NCBI GenBank assembly: GCA_016207825.1
Contig: JACQZI010000008.1
Location: 1-64,000, forward strand
Reading direction: 5' to 3'
Source of the DNA: Planctomycetota bacterium
GTDB taxonomy: Bacteria; Planctomycetota; MHYJ01; JACQXL01; JACQZI01
DNA length: 64,000 nucleotides
The notes beneath the pieces are model-generated. The model worked only from the letters and a program-made list of their open reading frames with translations, was not told the origin of the DNA and searched no databases. The first letter of the stretch is position 1. Each line of letters begins with the position of its first letter. A program made the translations under genes and the position numbers. Positions 7,464 to 62,237 of this stretch are shown in pieces.

Positions 7464-10292
7464 TTACTCCCCGACCTTGGTTGGCGTGGTTTTGTCCGTA
7501 TAATCGTTCACTCCCAATTGCCCCGCGTCATTGAGTCCCCATGTCCAGATGGTTCCGTCATTTTTCAATGCAATATTATGCCGGCTTCCTGCGGATATCA
7601 TTGACCAACCCGTTGAATTGCCTATTTTCGTCGGGATAAGTTTTTCCGTTCCCTCGCCGCTGTCGCCCAGTCCCAATTGCCCGTGATTATTGAATCCCCA
7701 TGCCCATAATGTCCCGTCGTTCTTGGTGGCAATGGAATGATATTCACCGGCTGAAACCTTTGCCCAGTCGGAATCCATTCCCACGCGCGTCGGCGTGTTT
7801 CTGTTTGTGATGTCGTTCAATCCCAATTGACCGTCGTTATTAAGGCCCCAGGCCCATAATGTGCCGTCTGATTTTACGGCCAGGGTATGGTATTTGCCGC
7901 CGGCAATCATATTCCAGTTATTAGCGCTTCCGACCTGGTTTGGTGATGTTCTCTCTGTCCCGCTGCCGCTCGTGCCCAGGCCCAATTGCCCGTATTCATT
8001 ATTGCCCCATGCCCATAATGTCCCGTTGGTTTTTATGGCAAGGGTGTGATAACGCCCGGCCGCTATTTTCAGCCAGTTGGTTTCACTGCCCATTTGCGCC
8101 AGAATTGTTCGCCTGGTATAATCTCCTAATCCGAGTTGTCCGTATCCGTTATAACCGCATGCCCAGATCGAGTTGTTGTTTTTCCTGATGATGGAATGCA
8201 GTTCTCCTGCCGCGATATCGAACCAATCCGTTGAAGAAGGATTCGTTATTTGTTCCGGAGATGTTTTTTCCGCTCCGCTTCCCCAGATAATAAGCCCTAA
8301 CTGGCCGTCGCTGTTATATCCCCATGACCATAACGAGCCGCCTATTTTTACGGCCATGTTATGGTAGCTCGTGGCTAATATCGTATCCCAGTTATATAAA
8401 GTGCCGATACGTGTCGGCACACTTTTATTTGTTCCGGTCCCTTTGGTTCCTAGTCCCAGCTGGCCGTCATCGTTATCTCCCCACGACCAGATGCTGTTAT
8501 TGCTGGCGATTGCCACACAGTGGGAGTATCCGGCAGAGACTTTCAGCCAACTGCCGTTTGTGGTATTGCTGGAAGTGTTGGAAGCAGCGCTGTCCCCGAA
8601 TCCGTTATACGCCTTGACGAGATAATAATAGGTGGTCAACGGTGAAAGCCCGGTATTTGAATATGAAGTTACATTGGCGTCAAGCGTGGCGATTTGGGTG
8701 TAATTCCCGCTTGACCCGATTTTACGCCATATTTTAAACCCAAGTTCATTGGAAGAATTATCAAGCCATCCCAGGTTAATTTGCGAAAGCGATATTACCG
8801 TATTGCTCAAACTTGTCGGCGCGGCCGGAATCCCTGTTGCCGGTTCGGGCAAATCGCGGTCATCGGTGTCATCAAGTCCCAGTTGCCCCGAGTCGTTTTT
8901 ACCCCAGCTTGATATGGTCTTGTTGGTTTTTAGAGCCACTGAATGATAATCTCCGGTCGTAACATCTGCCCAGTTTGTTTCCGAGCCGACTTTTGTCGGA
9001 GCGGTTCGGCTTATGGTATCGCCCAGTCCCAATTGCCCGTAGTCGTTTGCTCCCCAGGCCCATAATGAGCCGTCGGTTTTTATCGCCATCGTATATCCGC
9101 TGCTTATTGAGACGGTTGCCCAGTTCGTATCGGTTCCCACCCTGGTGGGGATGGTTCGGCTTATGGTATCGCCCAGTCCCAATTGCCCGTAGTCGTTTGC
9201 TCCCCAGGCCCAAAGCGAGCCGTCTGTTTTAACGGCAATCGTATATCCCTTGCCTGCGACGGCGCTTGCCCAATCCGTATCGGTTACTACTTTGGTTGGT
9301 TCGGTGCGGCTTAAGGTGTCGCCCAAGCCCAGCTGTCCCGAATCGTTTTTGCCCCATGCCCACAGGGTTTTATCCGTCTTTATGGCAACAGTGTAGCTTT
9401 CCCCGGCGGAAACTTTATCCCAGTCCATATCATTTCCTATTTTGGTGGGGGAGTCTTCGTCATCCGTATTTCCCTTTCCCAATTGCCCCCAATCATTTTT
9501 ACCCCATGACCAGATGCTTTTGTCGTCTTTGACGGCAAGCGAGTGGAAATCGCCGGCGCTGATTATTTTCCAATCATTGTCAGTTCCAATTTGTGTCGGC
9601 TGTGTCTTTGTTAAAGTGTCGTTGGTTCCAAGTTGTCCAAAGTCGTTCCTGCCCCATGCCCATAAGGTGCCGAGTGTTGTCAGGGCGAGCGAATGGAAAT
9701 CCCCGGCGGCTGTCTTTGACCAGTTTGAAGCACTCCCTATTTTCGTGGGACTCGTCCTGTTATTGGCATCGCCCAGCCCTAATTCGCTGTAGGAATTATT
9801 TCCCCATGCCCAGATAGTCCCGTTAGTGGAAATTGCTAGGGTGTGCCCTCCGCCGGCGGCTACTTCTAACCAGGCGTCGTAAGTGGTTGCGTTTGCCTCG
9901 TTGGAATAATTACTGTAGCCGTAAGGGTTATAACTCCTGATTTTGTAATAATAATCGGTTGAAGGCATGAGCCCGGTATCCGAATAAGATGTCACGTTCG
10001 GCCCGACCGCCGCAATCTGTGCGTAAGTTCCTCCGGGCCCGGTCTTGCGTTCTATCTTGAATCCTGTTTCATCCAAAGAGGCATCTGTCCAGGAAAGGTT
10101 AATCTGCGATGTATTGACGGCGTTTGCGGCCAGTAATAACGGTGTGTTAGGGCCCGTGAGGGCTCCACTGCTTCCGGAAGCGGTGGTATCGTCATTGTCG
10201 TTGCTTTTGTTCCAGCAGCCTTTGGCACCGGTAAAAAAGGCAAGGGCAAATGAAAGAAGGAGAGTGATTCCTATTAATACGCGGTTTTTCAT
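7464..10292 (-). CDS. RCC1-repeat / fibronectin type III surface protein
   Basis: The 942-aa exported protein begins with a signal segment (KNRVLIGITLLLSFALAFFTG) and a Cys at about residue 26 (AKGC), a poor lipobox. Order: FN3 at about 48-138, seven 50-residue RCC1 repeats (SLWAWGxNDYGQLGLGD type) at about 139-475, a second FN3 at about 490-580 and seven more RCC1 repeats to the C-terminus. The repeats should form two seven-bladed propellers. Two neighbouring repeats share nearly identical DNA 150 bp apart (9003 and 9153), indicating recent duplication or gene conversion. Partner and function are unknown; adhesion or ligand binding is a guess. It ends only 12 bp from the convergent cstA. Confidence 0.85.
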   Translation of the reverse strand: MKNRVLIGITLLLSFALAFFTGAKGCWNKSNDNDDTTASGSSGALTGPNTPLLLAANAVNTSQINLSWTDASLDETGFKIERKTGPGGTYAQIAAVGPNVTSYSDTGLMPSTDYYYKIRSYNPYGYSNYSNEANATTYDAWLEVAAGGGHTLAISTNGTIWAWGNNSYSELGLGDANNRTSPTKIGSASNWSKTAAGDFHSLALTTLGTLWAWGRNDFGQLGTNDTLTKTQPTQIGTDNDWKIISAGDFHSLAVKDDKSIWSWGKNDWGQLGKGNTDDEDSPTKIGNDMDWDKVSAGESYTVAIKTDKTLWAWGKNDSGQLGLGDTLSRTEPTKVVTDTDWASAVAGKGYTIAVKTDGSLWAWGANDYGQLGLGDTISRTIPTRVGTDTNWATVSISSGYTMAIKTDGSLWAWGANDYGQLGLGDTISRTAPTKVGSETNWADVTTGDYHSVALKTNKTISSWGKNDSGQLGLDDTDDRDLPEPATGIPAAPTSLSNTVISLSQINLGWLDNSSNELGFKIWRKIGSSGNYTQIATLDANVTSYSNTGLSPLTTYYYLVKAYNGFGDSAASNTSSNTTNGSWLKVSAGYSHCVAIASNNSIWSWGDNDDGQLGLGTKGTGTNKSVPTRIGTLYNWDTILATSYHNMAVKIGGSLWSWGYNSDGQLGLIIWGSGAEKTSPEQITNPSSTDWFDIAAGELHSIIRKNNNSIWACGYNGYGQLGLGDYTRRTILAQMGSETNWLKIAAGRYHTLAIKTNGTLWAWGNNEYGQLGLGTSGSGTERTSPNQVGSANNWNMIAGGKYHTLAVKSDGTLWAWGLNNDGQLGLNDITNRNTPTRVGMDSDWAKVSAGEYHSIATKNDGTLWAWGFNNHGQLGLGDSGEGTEKLIPTKIGNSTGWSMISAGSRHNIALKNDGTIWTWGLNDAGQLGVNDYTDKTTPTKVGE

Positions 10293-15310: not shown

Positions 15311-15332
15311 TGTCTACTACATCTCACTCTCT

Positions 15333-15772
15333 TATCCACTCCCTGCCATGGGGTAGGATAGTGGGTGCCGGACTCATAGATACAGAGTACTATCCGGTAG
15401 GATACGGGATACTCTGGGGATATTACAGCTATACAGACGGCGTATCCCTGCATCACCGGATACCTATCCCAAGATTACAGAGTATATATCCTATGATTAG
15501 TAATGCCATATCCGTAGATGGCTAATGGCGTATCCCAAGATTACTAAGTATGTATCTGTAGATGACTAATACCGTATCCTGATATTACAGGGTACATATC
15601 TATGGATTAGTGACGGCATATCCGTAGATAACAGGATACCTATCCCTATATTACTAATAGTGTATCCGTAGATAACCCATAGCCTATCCCAATACTACTA
15701 ACGGGATATCCGTAGATTACAGAGTATATAGGGGTAGATATGGAGTAGGGTAGGAGTGGGGTATCCCCACCC
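15333..15772. repeat. 22-bp-period degenerate tandem array A
   Basis: Thirteen consecutive units start with TATC(C/T) at exactly 22-bp steps: 15443, 15465, 15487, 15509, 15531, 15553, 15575, 15597, 15619, 15641, 15663, 15685 and 15707. Further diverged units in phase extend to 15333 on the left (TATCC at 15333, TAGAT at 15377, TATTA at 15421) and 15751 on the right. The consensus is TATCC-N3-GATTACTAA followed by a variable tail of about 5 nt. Many units alternate GTAGAT and CAAGAT-like cores, giving a partial 44-bp super-period. No two units are identical. 22 is not a multiple of 3, so this is not a coding repeat. Confidence 0.92.
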
Positions 15773-15784
15773 CCAAAAAAGCCA

Positions 15785-15903
15785 ACTGCACCAAAAAGGC
15801 AGTTTTAACGCAATATAACGAGGATTCAGCCTGTTTTTGGATTTATTCAGATTTTTCACTGCACCAAAAACTCACTTTTGTGTGCACTTAACTGCACCAA
15901 AAA
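15785..15903. repeat. Three direct copies of ACTGCACCAAAAA
   Basis: ACTGCACCAAAAA occurs at 15785-15797, 15858-15870 and 15891-15903 within 120 bp, immediately after array A. The first copy is also part of a small inverted repeat AACTGC...GCAGTT. No gene overlaps. Confidence 0.7.
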
Positions 15904-15989: not shown

Positions 15990-16057
15990 CTTATATTGAG
16001 AATGGCATCAAATATACCTGCCTCGCCGGCAAGGCGGGTGCATTTTTATACCCATAG

Positions 16058-16123
16058 TTCCCTTTTTCAGTTGACAAAGTTCCCTTTTTGAGTTGACAAA
16101 GTATCGTGCTACAGTTGGCGCCC
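16058..16123. repeat. 22-bp tandem repeat with TTGACAAAG, possible transposon-end remnant
   Basis: Two 22-bp units differing at one position (TTCCCTTTTT-C/G-AGTTGACAAAG) start at 16058 and 16080, and a third diverged unit at 16102 keeps CAGTTGGC. Repeated transposase-binding sites of about this size are known at IS21-family ends, so this may be a solo IS end. No istA/istB is present. The unit also contains TTGACA, but no downstream -10 or gene on this strand supports a promoter. Confidence 0.5.
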
Positions 16124-48285: not shown

Positions 48286-48442
48286 GATGAGAAATTAAAA
48301 ATTAATTAAATGAGATTGCGGACAAAAAGGGCAGGGTAGGACTTCCCGAAAACAAATATAATGAACCTATTATGCAATGTAATGAAGAATCAGCAAAACA
48401 GGGGGGAGGATACCTCTGCGGGCGCTACCCCTCGCGAATTCG

Positions 48443-48706
48443 GGTATGACCCCAAACGGACTAAGATACTACCTCAAATGGATGGAGATGCGGTCTCTAA
48501 CGGATAGAGATATGGAGTTTAATGGATAGAGATATGACCCTGAACGGACGAAGATACGGGTTGCAATGGACTAAATTGGGGGGTGTTAAGAATGCAGATA
48601 TGGGGTCAAACTAACCCGGATATGGGTCTGAAAGGATGGAGATATAGCCCTGATAGGATGAAGATACGGATTTGAAGGGCTGGCGATATGGTCTTGGTGC
48701 GATTAA
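48443..48706. repeat. 22-bp-period degenerate tandem array B
   Basis: Twelve units begin at exact 22-bp steps (48443, 48465, 48487, 48509, 48531, 48553, 48575, 48597, 48619, 48641, 48663, 48685). Ten have GAT at positions 1-3 and most read GATA(T/C)GG. The consensus is GATATGG-N-CCTGAA-N-GGATGGA. Units are not identical; conservation is concentrated in the GATA block and the AA-N-GGA block. The plus strand is purine-rich. It has the same period as array A but a different consensus. The start codon of the following small HTH frame lies inside the last unit. Confidence 0.92.
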
Positions 48707-48951
48707 ATCAGGGGGTTCCTGGACAAACTCTATCCTGTCTTGAGGCGGAGATAAAAAAGGCTATCAGGATAAGAGGTTATCGTTACCGGCTCAGGCTACA
48801 GACGATATTTTATTCGCTTAAAGGCTGGACGGTCGAAAGGATTTCCGGACATTTTGATATCCCGGAACGAACAGTCTATAAATGGCGTAAGATTTATAAA
48901 GAGAAAGGATTAGAGGGATTGCGCGGTAAATACTTTTCGCGCAGGTTATGA
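48688..48951 (+). CDS. Orphan helix-turn-helix protein (IS630-like N-terminus)
   Basis: The 87-aa product contains a homeodomain-like HTH (RLRLQTIFYSLKGWTVERIS followed by GHFDIPERTVYKWRKIYKEK and GLEGLRGK), the arrangement of the DNA-binding N-terminus of IS630/Tc1-type transposases and related regulators. The catalytic DDE part is missing and a stop follows at 48949-48951, so it is either a truncated transposase or a stand-alone DNA-binding protein. The ATG lies within the last unit of array B, so the array is its direct upstream region. No ribosome site is evident. Confidence 0.5.
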   Translation: MVLVRLNQGVPGQTLSCLEAEIKKAIRIRGYRYRLRLQTIFYSLKGWTVERISGHFDIPERTVYKWRKIYKEKGLEGLRGKYFSRRL

Positions 48952-60121: not shown

Positions 60122-61624
60122 TTACCTCTCCAGTAATTCCCTCGGCCGGTTAATGGTCTTGCAGAATTCTTCCTCGCCGGCAAAATACGCCCCAGTCGCA
60201 TCCGGCTTGGCATCCAGGAATAAAATAAAATCAAGCTCTTTTGCCGGGGTGTCTTTCTCCGTTACATACTTCCGCGCAATCTCCACTGCCGGCATGGTGT
60301 TCCTGCCCATCACCCGCTTGGTCTTGAAATCAATTATTCCTTCATAGGATAACCAAACCACCTGAGTGCACACCAGCTTGGTGCGGTCATCGAAATCAAA
60401 GTTAAAGTCATAGGGTTTCCCCAGGTTTTCAAAGGCCCTGGTAATGGCTAACCCGATTTCCTCTTTAGTCGCTTTGGGCCTTAATACCGCCACATAATCC
60501 GCATGCATGGAGTGCTCCAAGGTATTCAAAACCACGCCTTCGCTCAGAGCCTCTATGATCGTATAAGTATGCCCGTCAGCGGATTTTTTAAGGTATGCCT
60601 CCAGGTGCTTTTGGATAGCCGGGTTTTCCGTTCCGCCCAAAGGCTTGAGGTCGTCTATCGTTCCGATATATAATGCCGCGTGCGGCCAGAAACCGGGCAG
60701 GAACGGATTGGATAAAAACCAGTTGCGCCTTTCCAGCAAAATATCTCCGGGCTTTAATTTTGTCTTCAGCTCAGCGATTTGTTCCATGGAGATAAAAGGT
60801 TCACGGTCGGTGAGCTTGGTGTCTCCCAAGAAAGTGGCGATAACGGATTGCCCGTCGTAAATATCGCTTGATAATGCGTCATTGGTGTTTTGGACTGTTT
60901 GCTTAATCAGGTTATCAAGATGGGTATCGGTTTCTCTTGGAATGGTTCTGCCGATATAAAATCCGGCAAGGAGCACGATAAAATGGGTCATGAACATCCC
61001 GGCGACCATGGCGCGCTTGGAGATTTTCTCGCTGCCCACCCGGTTTAACATCCAGTGGAATAATAAATAAGAGCTTCCGATGACCGTGCCGGTTGCCGGG
61101 ATTAAGGCGATGCTTAAGAATATGGTATTTAGCTCGGCAAAGACGTCGCGCCTGAATCCAAGAGAAAGTATCATAATCCCCGCCCAGATGACGGATAACG
61201 AAGTGAGCTTTTCTATAATGCCCGGCTTTTCCTTTGAGTAGGAAGCAATCAGGATAAGATGGGTGGTAAAAACCGAAGGCACCATCGTAATCCACCAGAT
61301 ACGCCAGACGATTGTATGCACCATCCAGTTTGTCCAGACGAGCATGAAGAAGCTTACCTGCGAAGCGAGAATGGCGAGTATCCCGATAGTAAGCAGGAAA
61401 GAACGCCTTTTGGAGATGCTGACCTGGATTCCGGCCAGGAACGCCCCGGCGACAAACCCGATAAAGGTCATGACAAGGCGTGTAAGCAAGCGGTCTATGG
61501 ACTGTCTTAATATCGCTTCCAGGAGCAGTATCACGCAGGCGATAAGCGATATCCATAAAATCTTTACCAGAAATCCCGGGAATCTTGGCTTTTTAGTTAA
61601 TTCTATATTCATGTTTCTAACCAC
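60122..61624 (-). CDS. Membrane protein with YiiX-type permuted papain-like domain
   Basis: The 500-aa protein has six or seven membrane helices in residues 15-230 and a C-terminal cysteine amidase/peptidase-like domain. In that domain LKPGDILLERR, WPHAALYIG (His) and TKLVCTQVVW (Cys) form the permuted NlpC/P60 signature of YiiX/YaeF (C92) proteins, expected to cleave lipid- or peptide-amide bonds. Fusion to a multispan membrane domain is uncommon. Function unknown. Upstream is an inverted repeat and lemA on the same strand. Confidence 0.75.
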   Translation of the reverse strand: MVRNMNIELTKKPRFPGFLVKILWISLIACVILLLEAILRQSIDRLLTRLVMTFIGFVAGAFLAGIQVSISKRRSFLLTIGILAILASQVSFFMLVWTNWMVHTIVWRIWWITMVPSVFTTHLILIASYSKEKPGIIEKLTSLSVIWAGIMILSLGFRRDVFAELNTIFLSIALIPATGTVIGSSYLLFHWMLNRVGSEKISKRAMVAGMFMTHFIVLLAGFYIGRTIPRETDTHLDNLIKQTVQNTNDALSSDIYDGQSVIATFLGDTKLTDREPFISMEQIAELKTKLKPGDILLERRNWFLSNPFLPGFWPHAALYIGTIDDLKPLGGTENPAIQKHLEAYLKKSADGHTYTIIEALSEGVVLNTLEHSMHADYVAVLRPKATKEEIGLAITRAFENLGKPYDFNFDFDDRTKLVCTQVVWLSYEGIIDFKTKRVMGRNTMPAVEIARKYVTEKDTPAKELDFILFLDAKPDATGAYFAGEEEFCKTINRPRELLER

Positions 61625-61677
61625 AGATTACACAGATTTCACGAATTATTTTTTTCATTATCTGTGTAATCCGTGGC
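61621..61677. repeat. Inverted CCACAGATTACACAGAT pair between genes
   Basis: CCACAGATTACACAGAT (61621-61637) and ATCTGTGTAATCCGTGG (61660-61676) are inverted copies around a 22-nt AT loop. The right arm abuts the lemA stop (TAG, 61677-61679), the left arm the start of the YiiX-like gene. It may act as a terminator-like hairpin. Confidence 0.7.
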
Positions 61678-62237
61678 TATATATTAACTTTCACAGCGTT
61701 CCGGACGGCATCGTCTTCCACTTCAAAGAAATCTTCTGCTTTGAATCCGAACATACCGGCAATGATGCTGGAAGGGAACATCTGGACTTTATTATTATAA
61801 TCGCGGATATTCCCGTTAAAGAAACGCCTCGCCGCGGCAATTTTATCCTCGGTATCCACCAGCTCCTGCTGGAGTTTCAGGAAGTTTTCATTCGCCTTGA
61901 GCTCTGGGTATCTTTCGGAGACGGCAAAGAGCGTTTTGAGGGTCCCGATCATGGCATTCTCATCCACGGACTGGCTGGAGTAACGGCCGTTGTTGGCGAA
62001 CGCCTTGTTACGAGCCTCGGTCACTTTTTCAAAGACTTCTTTCTCGTGAGCAGCATAGCCCTTGACGGTTTCGACCAGGTTTGGGATAAGGTCGTAGCGC
62101 CGCTTCATCTGGACATCGATATCCGCCCATGATTCCTTGATGTGGTTTTTGAGGGAGACCAGGCTGTTGTAGATGGCAATCAGGATAATTAGTAAAACCA
62201 GGAAAACACCGCCTAGGGCAATGATAGGTATGGGCAT
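61677..62237 (-). CDS. lemA: LemA family protein
   Basis: The 186-aa protein has an N-terminal membrane anchor (LGGVFLVLLIILIAIYNSLVSLK) and a helical bundle with SWADIDVQMKRRYDLIPNLVETVKGY and the terminal FFNGNIRDYNNKVQMFPSSIIAGMFGFK signature. LemA proteins are widespread and poorly understood; they often lie beside membrane or DUF3137 partners, and one such candidate is the 62684 gene. Confidence 0.93.
   Translation of the reverse strand: MPIPIIALGGVFLVLLIILIAIYNSLVSLKNHIKESWADIDVQMKRRYDLIPNLVETVKGYAAHEKEVFEKVTEARNKAFANNGRYSSQSVDENAMIGTLKTLFAVSERYPELKANENFLKLQQELVDTEDKIAAARRFFNGNIRDYNNKVQMFPSSIIAGMFGFKAEDFFEVEDDAVRNAVKVNI

Follow-up and report, generated by a model that had tools for sequence, protein, structure and literature searches.

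Degenerate 22-bp arrays in a Planctomycetota chromosome look like an undescribed DNA element, probably structural or a mobile satellite

The matS, Noc and SlmA sites occur in tens per chromosome at a spacing of tens of kb, and each consists of one short motif with a known protein. The arrays described here resemble these sites in number and spacing scale, but they share a period, a length and a G/C end instead of one motif. REP and BIME elements are dispersed, extragenic and palindromic, and lie mostly downstream of genes, between convergent or co-directional ORFs (PMC3733652, PMC2817692). Dispersal, extragenic location, a palindrome and 3′ and convergent placement are common to both. However, REPs have a consensus and a GTAG or CGTC tag, whereas the arrays have a 22-bp period and mostly unrelated units, and their G/C palindromes vary in sequence and flank the arrays instead of constituting the element.

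Borg repeats, found in Methanoperedens-associated elements, form scattered arrays with unique units, and the unit lengths of the intergenic ones are often not divisible by three; unit length varies, the repeats are perfect with a bias towards A, and roughly half of them fall within ORFs (PMC9879509). The arrays described here are likewise scattered and intergenic, mostly with a unit of their own, and their unit length is not a multiple of three. In contrast to Borg repeats, they have one fixed period, degenerate units and a near-neutral base composition, and they lie on chromosomal contigs. According to a survey of satellites in prokaryotes, most species have few of them, and Leptospira interrogans and Methanocella conradii are the only ones with dispersed non-coding families of long repeats (PMC6749651). 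Those families are also non-coding tandem arrays moved around the genome, but each keeps a similar repeat and several repeat lengths occur (37, 45, 46 and 69), whereas here one period carries many unit sequences. A literature search, with most subscription journals outside its scope, found no earlier description of 22-bp bacterial arrays. What makes the arrays look new is the outcome of this search together with the set of features that they combine, rather than any known mechanism.

The window is a stretch of 64,000 nucleotides from a Planctomycetota bacterium (contig JACQZI010000008.1, positions 1 to 64,000). Arrays A and B in the window have the following parts.

15336..15364, no strand: imperfect G/C inverted repeat at the left end of array A (z -2.17)
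15426..15755, plus strand: core of array A, 15 in-phase 22-bp units by unit profile
15443 to 15728, plus strand: strongest part of array A, inside the 15-unit core
15756..15770, no strand: perfect G/C palindrome GTGGGGTATCCCCAC, then CCCC, at the right end of array A
15798..15841, plus strand: outer flank of array A, resembling by eye the outer flank of the array at contig 7:176114-176421 of the same genome
48400..48433, no strand: G/C-run block (AGGGGGGAGGATACCTCTGCGGGCGCTACCCCTC) at the left end of array B
48438..48723, minus strand: array B, 13 in-phase 22-bp units with a minus-strand consensus like CRTATCTCTATCCRTTA

As a first, sequence-only reading had claimed, array A has 13 units in a row that start with TATC(C/T), exactly 22 bp apart, from 15443 to 15707. 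The autocorrelation and shuffle test proposed in that reading placed the period far outside chance: the lag-22 identity of 15333-15772 is 0.50, compared with 0.253 +/- 0.024 in 1000 dinucleotide shuffles, in which the highest identity at any lag was 0.365. The 44-bp layer that it described is real. Within the core, identity rises from 0.57 at lag 22 to 0.63 at lag 44 and stands at 0.64 for lag 110, and the units, with a consensus of roughly TATCC-x-tAGATtACtaA-xxgca, are partly paired. The units run head-to-tail without the unique spacers of a CRISPR, and an Rfam scan of array A returned no family, which fits the earlier statement that it matches no CRISPR, rRNA or IS structure.

The palindrome GTGGGGTATCCCCAC is an end feature of the kind present at most arrays; as a single-strand hairpin, its stability is not above that of shuffles (z -0.55). 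On the left, 15328-15357 recurs inverted beside another array of the same genome (contig 22:42004-42444). The contig 7 array, whose outer flank looks alike, has units unrelated to those of array A. About 300 bp from array A, at 16056-16102, are two near-identical 22-bp copies (AGTTCCCTTTTTCAGTTGACAA), which may resemble an IS21-type end.

Array A is one member of a chromosome-wide set of non-coding 22-bp arrays. We examined 1.19 Mb of G000, the genome that contains the window, 0.94 Mb of G003, which belongs to another family of this order, and 0.1 Mb of G001, which shares its genus with G000. The scan for further 22-bp-periodic arrays suggested by the sequence-only reading yielded array B and dozens more in the sampled stretches. 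In the period census, lag l and lag 2l both had to reach at least 48% identity over 88 bp, for periods of 10-44. It found 29 arrays of 22 bp in G000 and 29 in G003. Among periods that are not multiples of 3, there were zero matches except at 22, at its double 44, and three at 10 (G003). The census is a sample of about 41% of G000 and 35% of G003, both draft genomes, under one scoring scheme. At a mean-score threshold of 0.48 there are 30 loci in G000 and 29 in G003, that is 25 and 31 per Mb; linear extrapolation gives roughly 75-90 per genome. Several thresholds were picked with the data in view; fine choices of this kind affect neither the period census nor the phase result below.

Across these arrays, spacing is conserved and sequence is not. 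We profiled the 56 arrays with a score of at least 0.55. They contain 5138 mismatches to each array's own consensus, and the phase changes internally in only two of the 56, both times near the array edge. Because mismatches share ancestry, the figure of 5138 overstates the number of independent events, and seven paralogous pairs therefore matter. These pairs differ by 424 substitutions and 8 gap events, several of the gaps lying outside the arrays or compensating each other. Neutral bacterial DNA has roughly one indel per 5-20 substitutions. Arrays with internal indels are also detected by the lag scan, because the disturbance caused by a phase shift is short. The strict period with loose sequence noted at array A thus holds for the family, as does the view that spacing is conserved and simple slippage is not the cause.

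The consensus units of the 56 arrays are mostly unrelated to each other, except for paralogous copies and a few related families. The number of units is tight, with a median of 13.5 and a 10-90% range of 11-17. A run of at least 5 G or C is present at the richer end of 91% of arrays, compared with 9% of single 145-bp background windows, an expectation that is roughly doubled by picking the richer of two ends. These runs are often palindromic, for example GGGGGTAGTACCCCC, and their sequence varies between arrays. Of 28 local matches to the pattern GGGGN{1,8}TACCCCC, 21 fall no more than 150 bp from an array. The flank motif CCTTATAAATCAAGATGATACAAAT had its four best matches in 0.79 Mb sampled all at arrays, but it was rejected as a general flank motif; since most arrays have no clear copy, it marks a subfamily at most.

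The earlier proposal that 22 bp represents two DNA turns is numerically plausible, but a direct test revealed no 11-bp pattern or sequence motif common to all units. Early matches at lags 11, 33 and 55 arose only because the scans averaged lags l and 2l. With no shared 11-bp pattern, there is no support for recognition of a common bend.

The arrays are intergenic. An ORF of at least 90 codons covers more than half of only 7 of the 56, and one strand is stop-free in 1 of 53, so a coding repeat was rejected. Neighbouring genes are convergent at 21 arrays and divergent at 6, compared with 74 and 107 in background gaps of at least 150 bp (P = 4e-4). No gene family is clearly enriched beside the arrays, and the idea of a cognate gene next to each array was dropped for this reason.

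The distribution of the arrays is non-random, as expected of chromosome-organising sites. With arrays less than 1.5 kb apart merged, 38 gaps average 32 kb and have a CV of 0.46, compared with 0.89 for random intergenic placement (P = 5e-5, threshold 0.48), an evenness that depends partly on the merging and on the score threshold. At thresholds of 0.46, 0.50 and 0.55 the P values are 5e-5, 1.5e-4 and 0.016, showing that this test is somewhat sensitive to threshold choices. Against a uniform-placement null, both genomes reach significance individually at a threshold of 0.48 (P = 0.003 and 0.0002), whereas G000 by itself falls short of it at 0.52 (P = 0.11). Along contig 3 of G003 the palindrome switches sides irregularly, so there is no obvious polarity.

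The even spacing recurs in G000 and G003 although array positions have changed. Positions mostly differ between the two genomes: of 8 orthologous genes that have a G000 array no more than 300 bp away, 2 also have one that close in G003 (P = 0.03), which is only weak evidence for conserved positions between families.

The G/C palindrome allowed us to follow the family into other genomes. Matches to the palindrome pattern and to its reversed control number 59 and 9 in G000, 66 and 8 in G003, 42 and 5 in G007 (another genus of G003's family), and 12 and 5 in the incomplete G001. Overlapping matches inflate some of these counts; the contrast with other genomes does not depend on them. The two remaining families of the order, represented by G002, G004 and G006, showed no excess, and relatives in the class and phylum generally showed none either. 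In the third genus, G007, the palindrome predicts 22-bp arrays: an array (score at least 0.47 in the cut-out) is present at 15 of the 17 distinct palindrome sites that could be read, one of them about 1.3 kb from its own palindrome. None of 25 further palindrome-search loci (L185-L209), which come from more distant relatives as far as listed, has an array of this strength.

We tentatively favour the reading that the array family is a phased scaffold acting at the DNA level, read by helical phasing, by the G/C end or by both, and most likely architectural. Each element consists of about 13-14 direct units of exactly 22 bp, with a G/C palindrome or G/C-run block at an end. A putative DNA-binding, DNA-wrapping or DNA-bridging protein would recognise it through helical phase and/or the G/C end, not through unit sequence. 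A binding platform for a multimeric protein, as first suggested for array A, is a possible role of this kind; the likeliest would be the organisation of domains or supercoils. Action at the DNA level is suggested by the exclusion of coding and by RNA folding, which is weak and does not differ between the strands. An architectural role would account for elements that hold on to phase, size and spacing but not to sequence. In favour of the scaffold, 22 is the sole recurrent non-coding period in two genomes, and it is joined by the rarity of phase changes and gaps among many substitutions, the tight unit number, an even spacing that recurs at mostly different positions in the two genomes, the convergent preference, the G/C runs and the palindrome that predicts arrays in a third genus. 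More tentative still is the fuller version, in which structural elements about 30 kb apart are recognised by helical phase, with drifting sequence and a fixed period, as a satellite-like architecture of the bacterial chromosome.

Several results count against the scaffold: no gene family is clearly enriched near the arrays, the units share neither a motif nor an 11-bp pattern, the evenness depends partly on merging and threshold, and a selfish element would be just as likely to be dispersed and to occupy safe 3′ sites. The array and its G/C palindrome could be a MITE-like mobile satellite, copied by a putative enzyme and tolerated at gene 3′ ends; we regard this, the main rival, as a serious possibility, though a somewhat doubtful one. 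Even spacing would then come from target immunity or purging, and the period from the binding sites of the copying enzyme. With target immunity, such an element explains dispersal and placement about as well as architecture does. As in transposable elements and MITEs, there are dispersed homologous copies: some arrays are paralogous over 380-570 bp at 88-93% identity, in either orientation and with the G/C end included. The turnover of positions between G000 and G003 and the convergent, 3′ placement also agree with mobility. However, no target-site duplication or terminal repeat was found by eye in the seven paralogous pairs, and their copy boundaries vary. Several arrays have another one no more than 0.5 kb away, a closeness that simple immunity would rule out, and most copies have no common unit sequence.

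The phased-scaffold reading must also be compared with transcription of the array into an RNA of 22-nt repeats that ends at the palindrome and serves as a guide, sponge or scaffold. A G/C palindrome at an end agrees with such an RNA, as does the gene on the far side, whose 3′ end points at the array in 38 of 52 cases. We nevertheless consider it unlikely. Array A has no promoter excess and no terminator as well as no Rfam family, and folding relative to column-permuted arrays is weak and equal on the two strands (z about -0.6 and -0.7). No unit had a clear match outside arrays among the matches listed. The 22-nt RNA templates proposed earlier for array A are not supported, given the lack of a promoter excess there and of strand-specific folding.

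Neutral minisatellites born from replication slippage are more improbable again. When arrays were read unit by unit, middle units were by eye more alike than end units, as in concerted evolution, and some arrays have higher-order repeats; unequal exchange predicts both. But slippage predicts many periods, with unit length free between loci as in VNTRs, whereas only 22 recurs outside the multiples of 3 apart from the three at 10. Indels are almost absent, and G/C ends and even spacing are left unexplained. Near-perfect two-copy duplications of 16-40 bp are nearly absent, numbering three in all, two of them of 22 bp; this was also too few for newborn 22-bp duplications to serve as a birth signature.

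An iteron-type replication origin or plasmid-like centromere, both among the earlier suggestions, would fit direct repeats of about two helical turns, but is highly improbable because of copy number: the chromosomal contigs carry about 25-31 loci per Mb. Most of these loci have a unit of their own, and no gene family stands out clearly next to them.

A non-coding element that keeps its period while its sequence changes, and that recurs at even intervals along a chromosome, is without counterpart among the bacterial repeats that we found described. If the array family is architectural, it offers a natural system for testing how bacteria organise 30-kb domains. If the family is selfish, it represents a mobile element of an unusual kind, with a 22-bp phase maintained from copy to copy. 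Under either reading, a whole class of conserved DNA can escape homology searches based on sequence.

Other features were observed in the window and the scanned stretches. An 87-aa ORF at 48688-48951, with a helix-turn-helix-like sequence by eye, starts inside the end of array B. A large protein with internal repeats is encoded at 7464-10292, with a 150-bp DNA repeat at 9002-9325; it is related to RCC1-like proteins, which also occur near arrays in G003. At L040:14530-14600, a 16S rRNA gene seems by eye to have an A-rich insertion in its 3′ part. A scan with DnaX matched only distant proteins, most of them from Firmicutes. Separate 21-bp arrays are present at L022:1682, L031:8551, L041:1098 and L056:18207. 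Several 21-bp arrays lie just upstream of paralogous genes of about 230 aa of the MPKKDYMPDPDGDFNIWQ type, and others probably encode heptad repeats. Of 22 arrays with this 21-bp period, 11 lie near a G or C run. In G003, 21-bp and 22-bp arrays directly adjoin each other at contig 3:32429-33170 and 61137-61901 and at contig 12:12148-13389.
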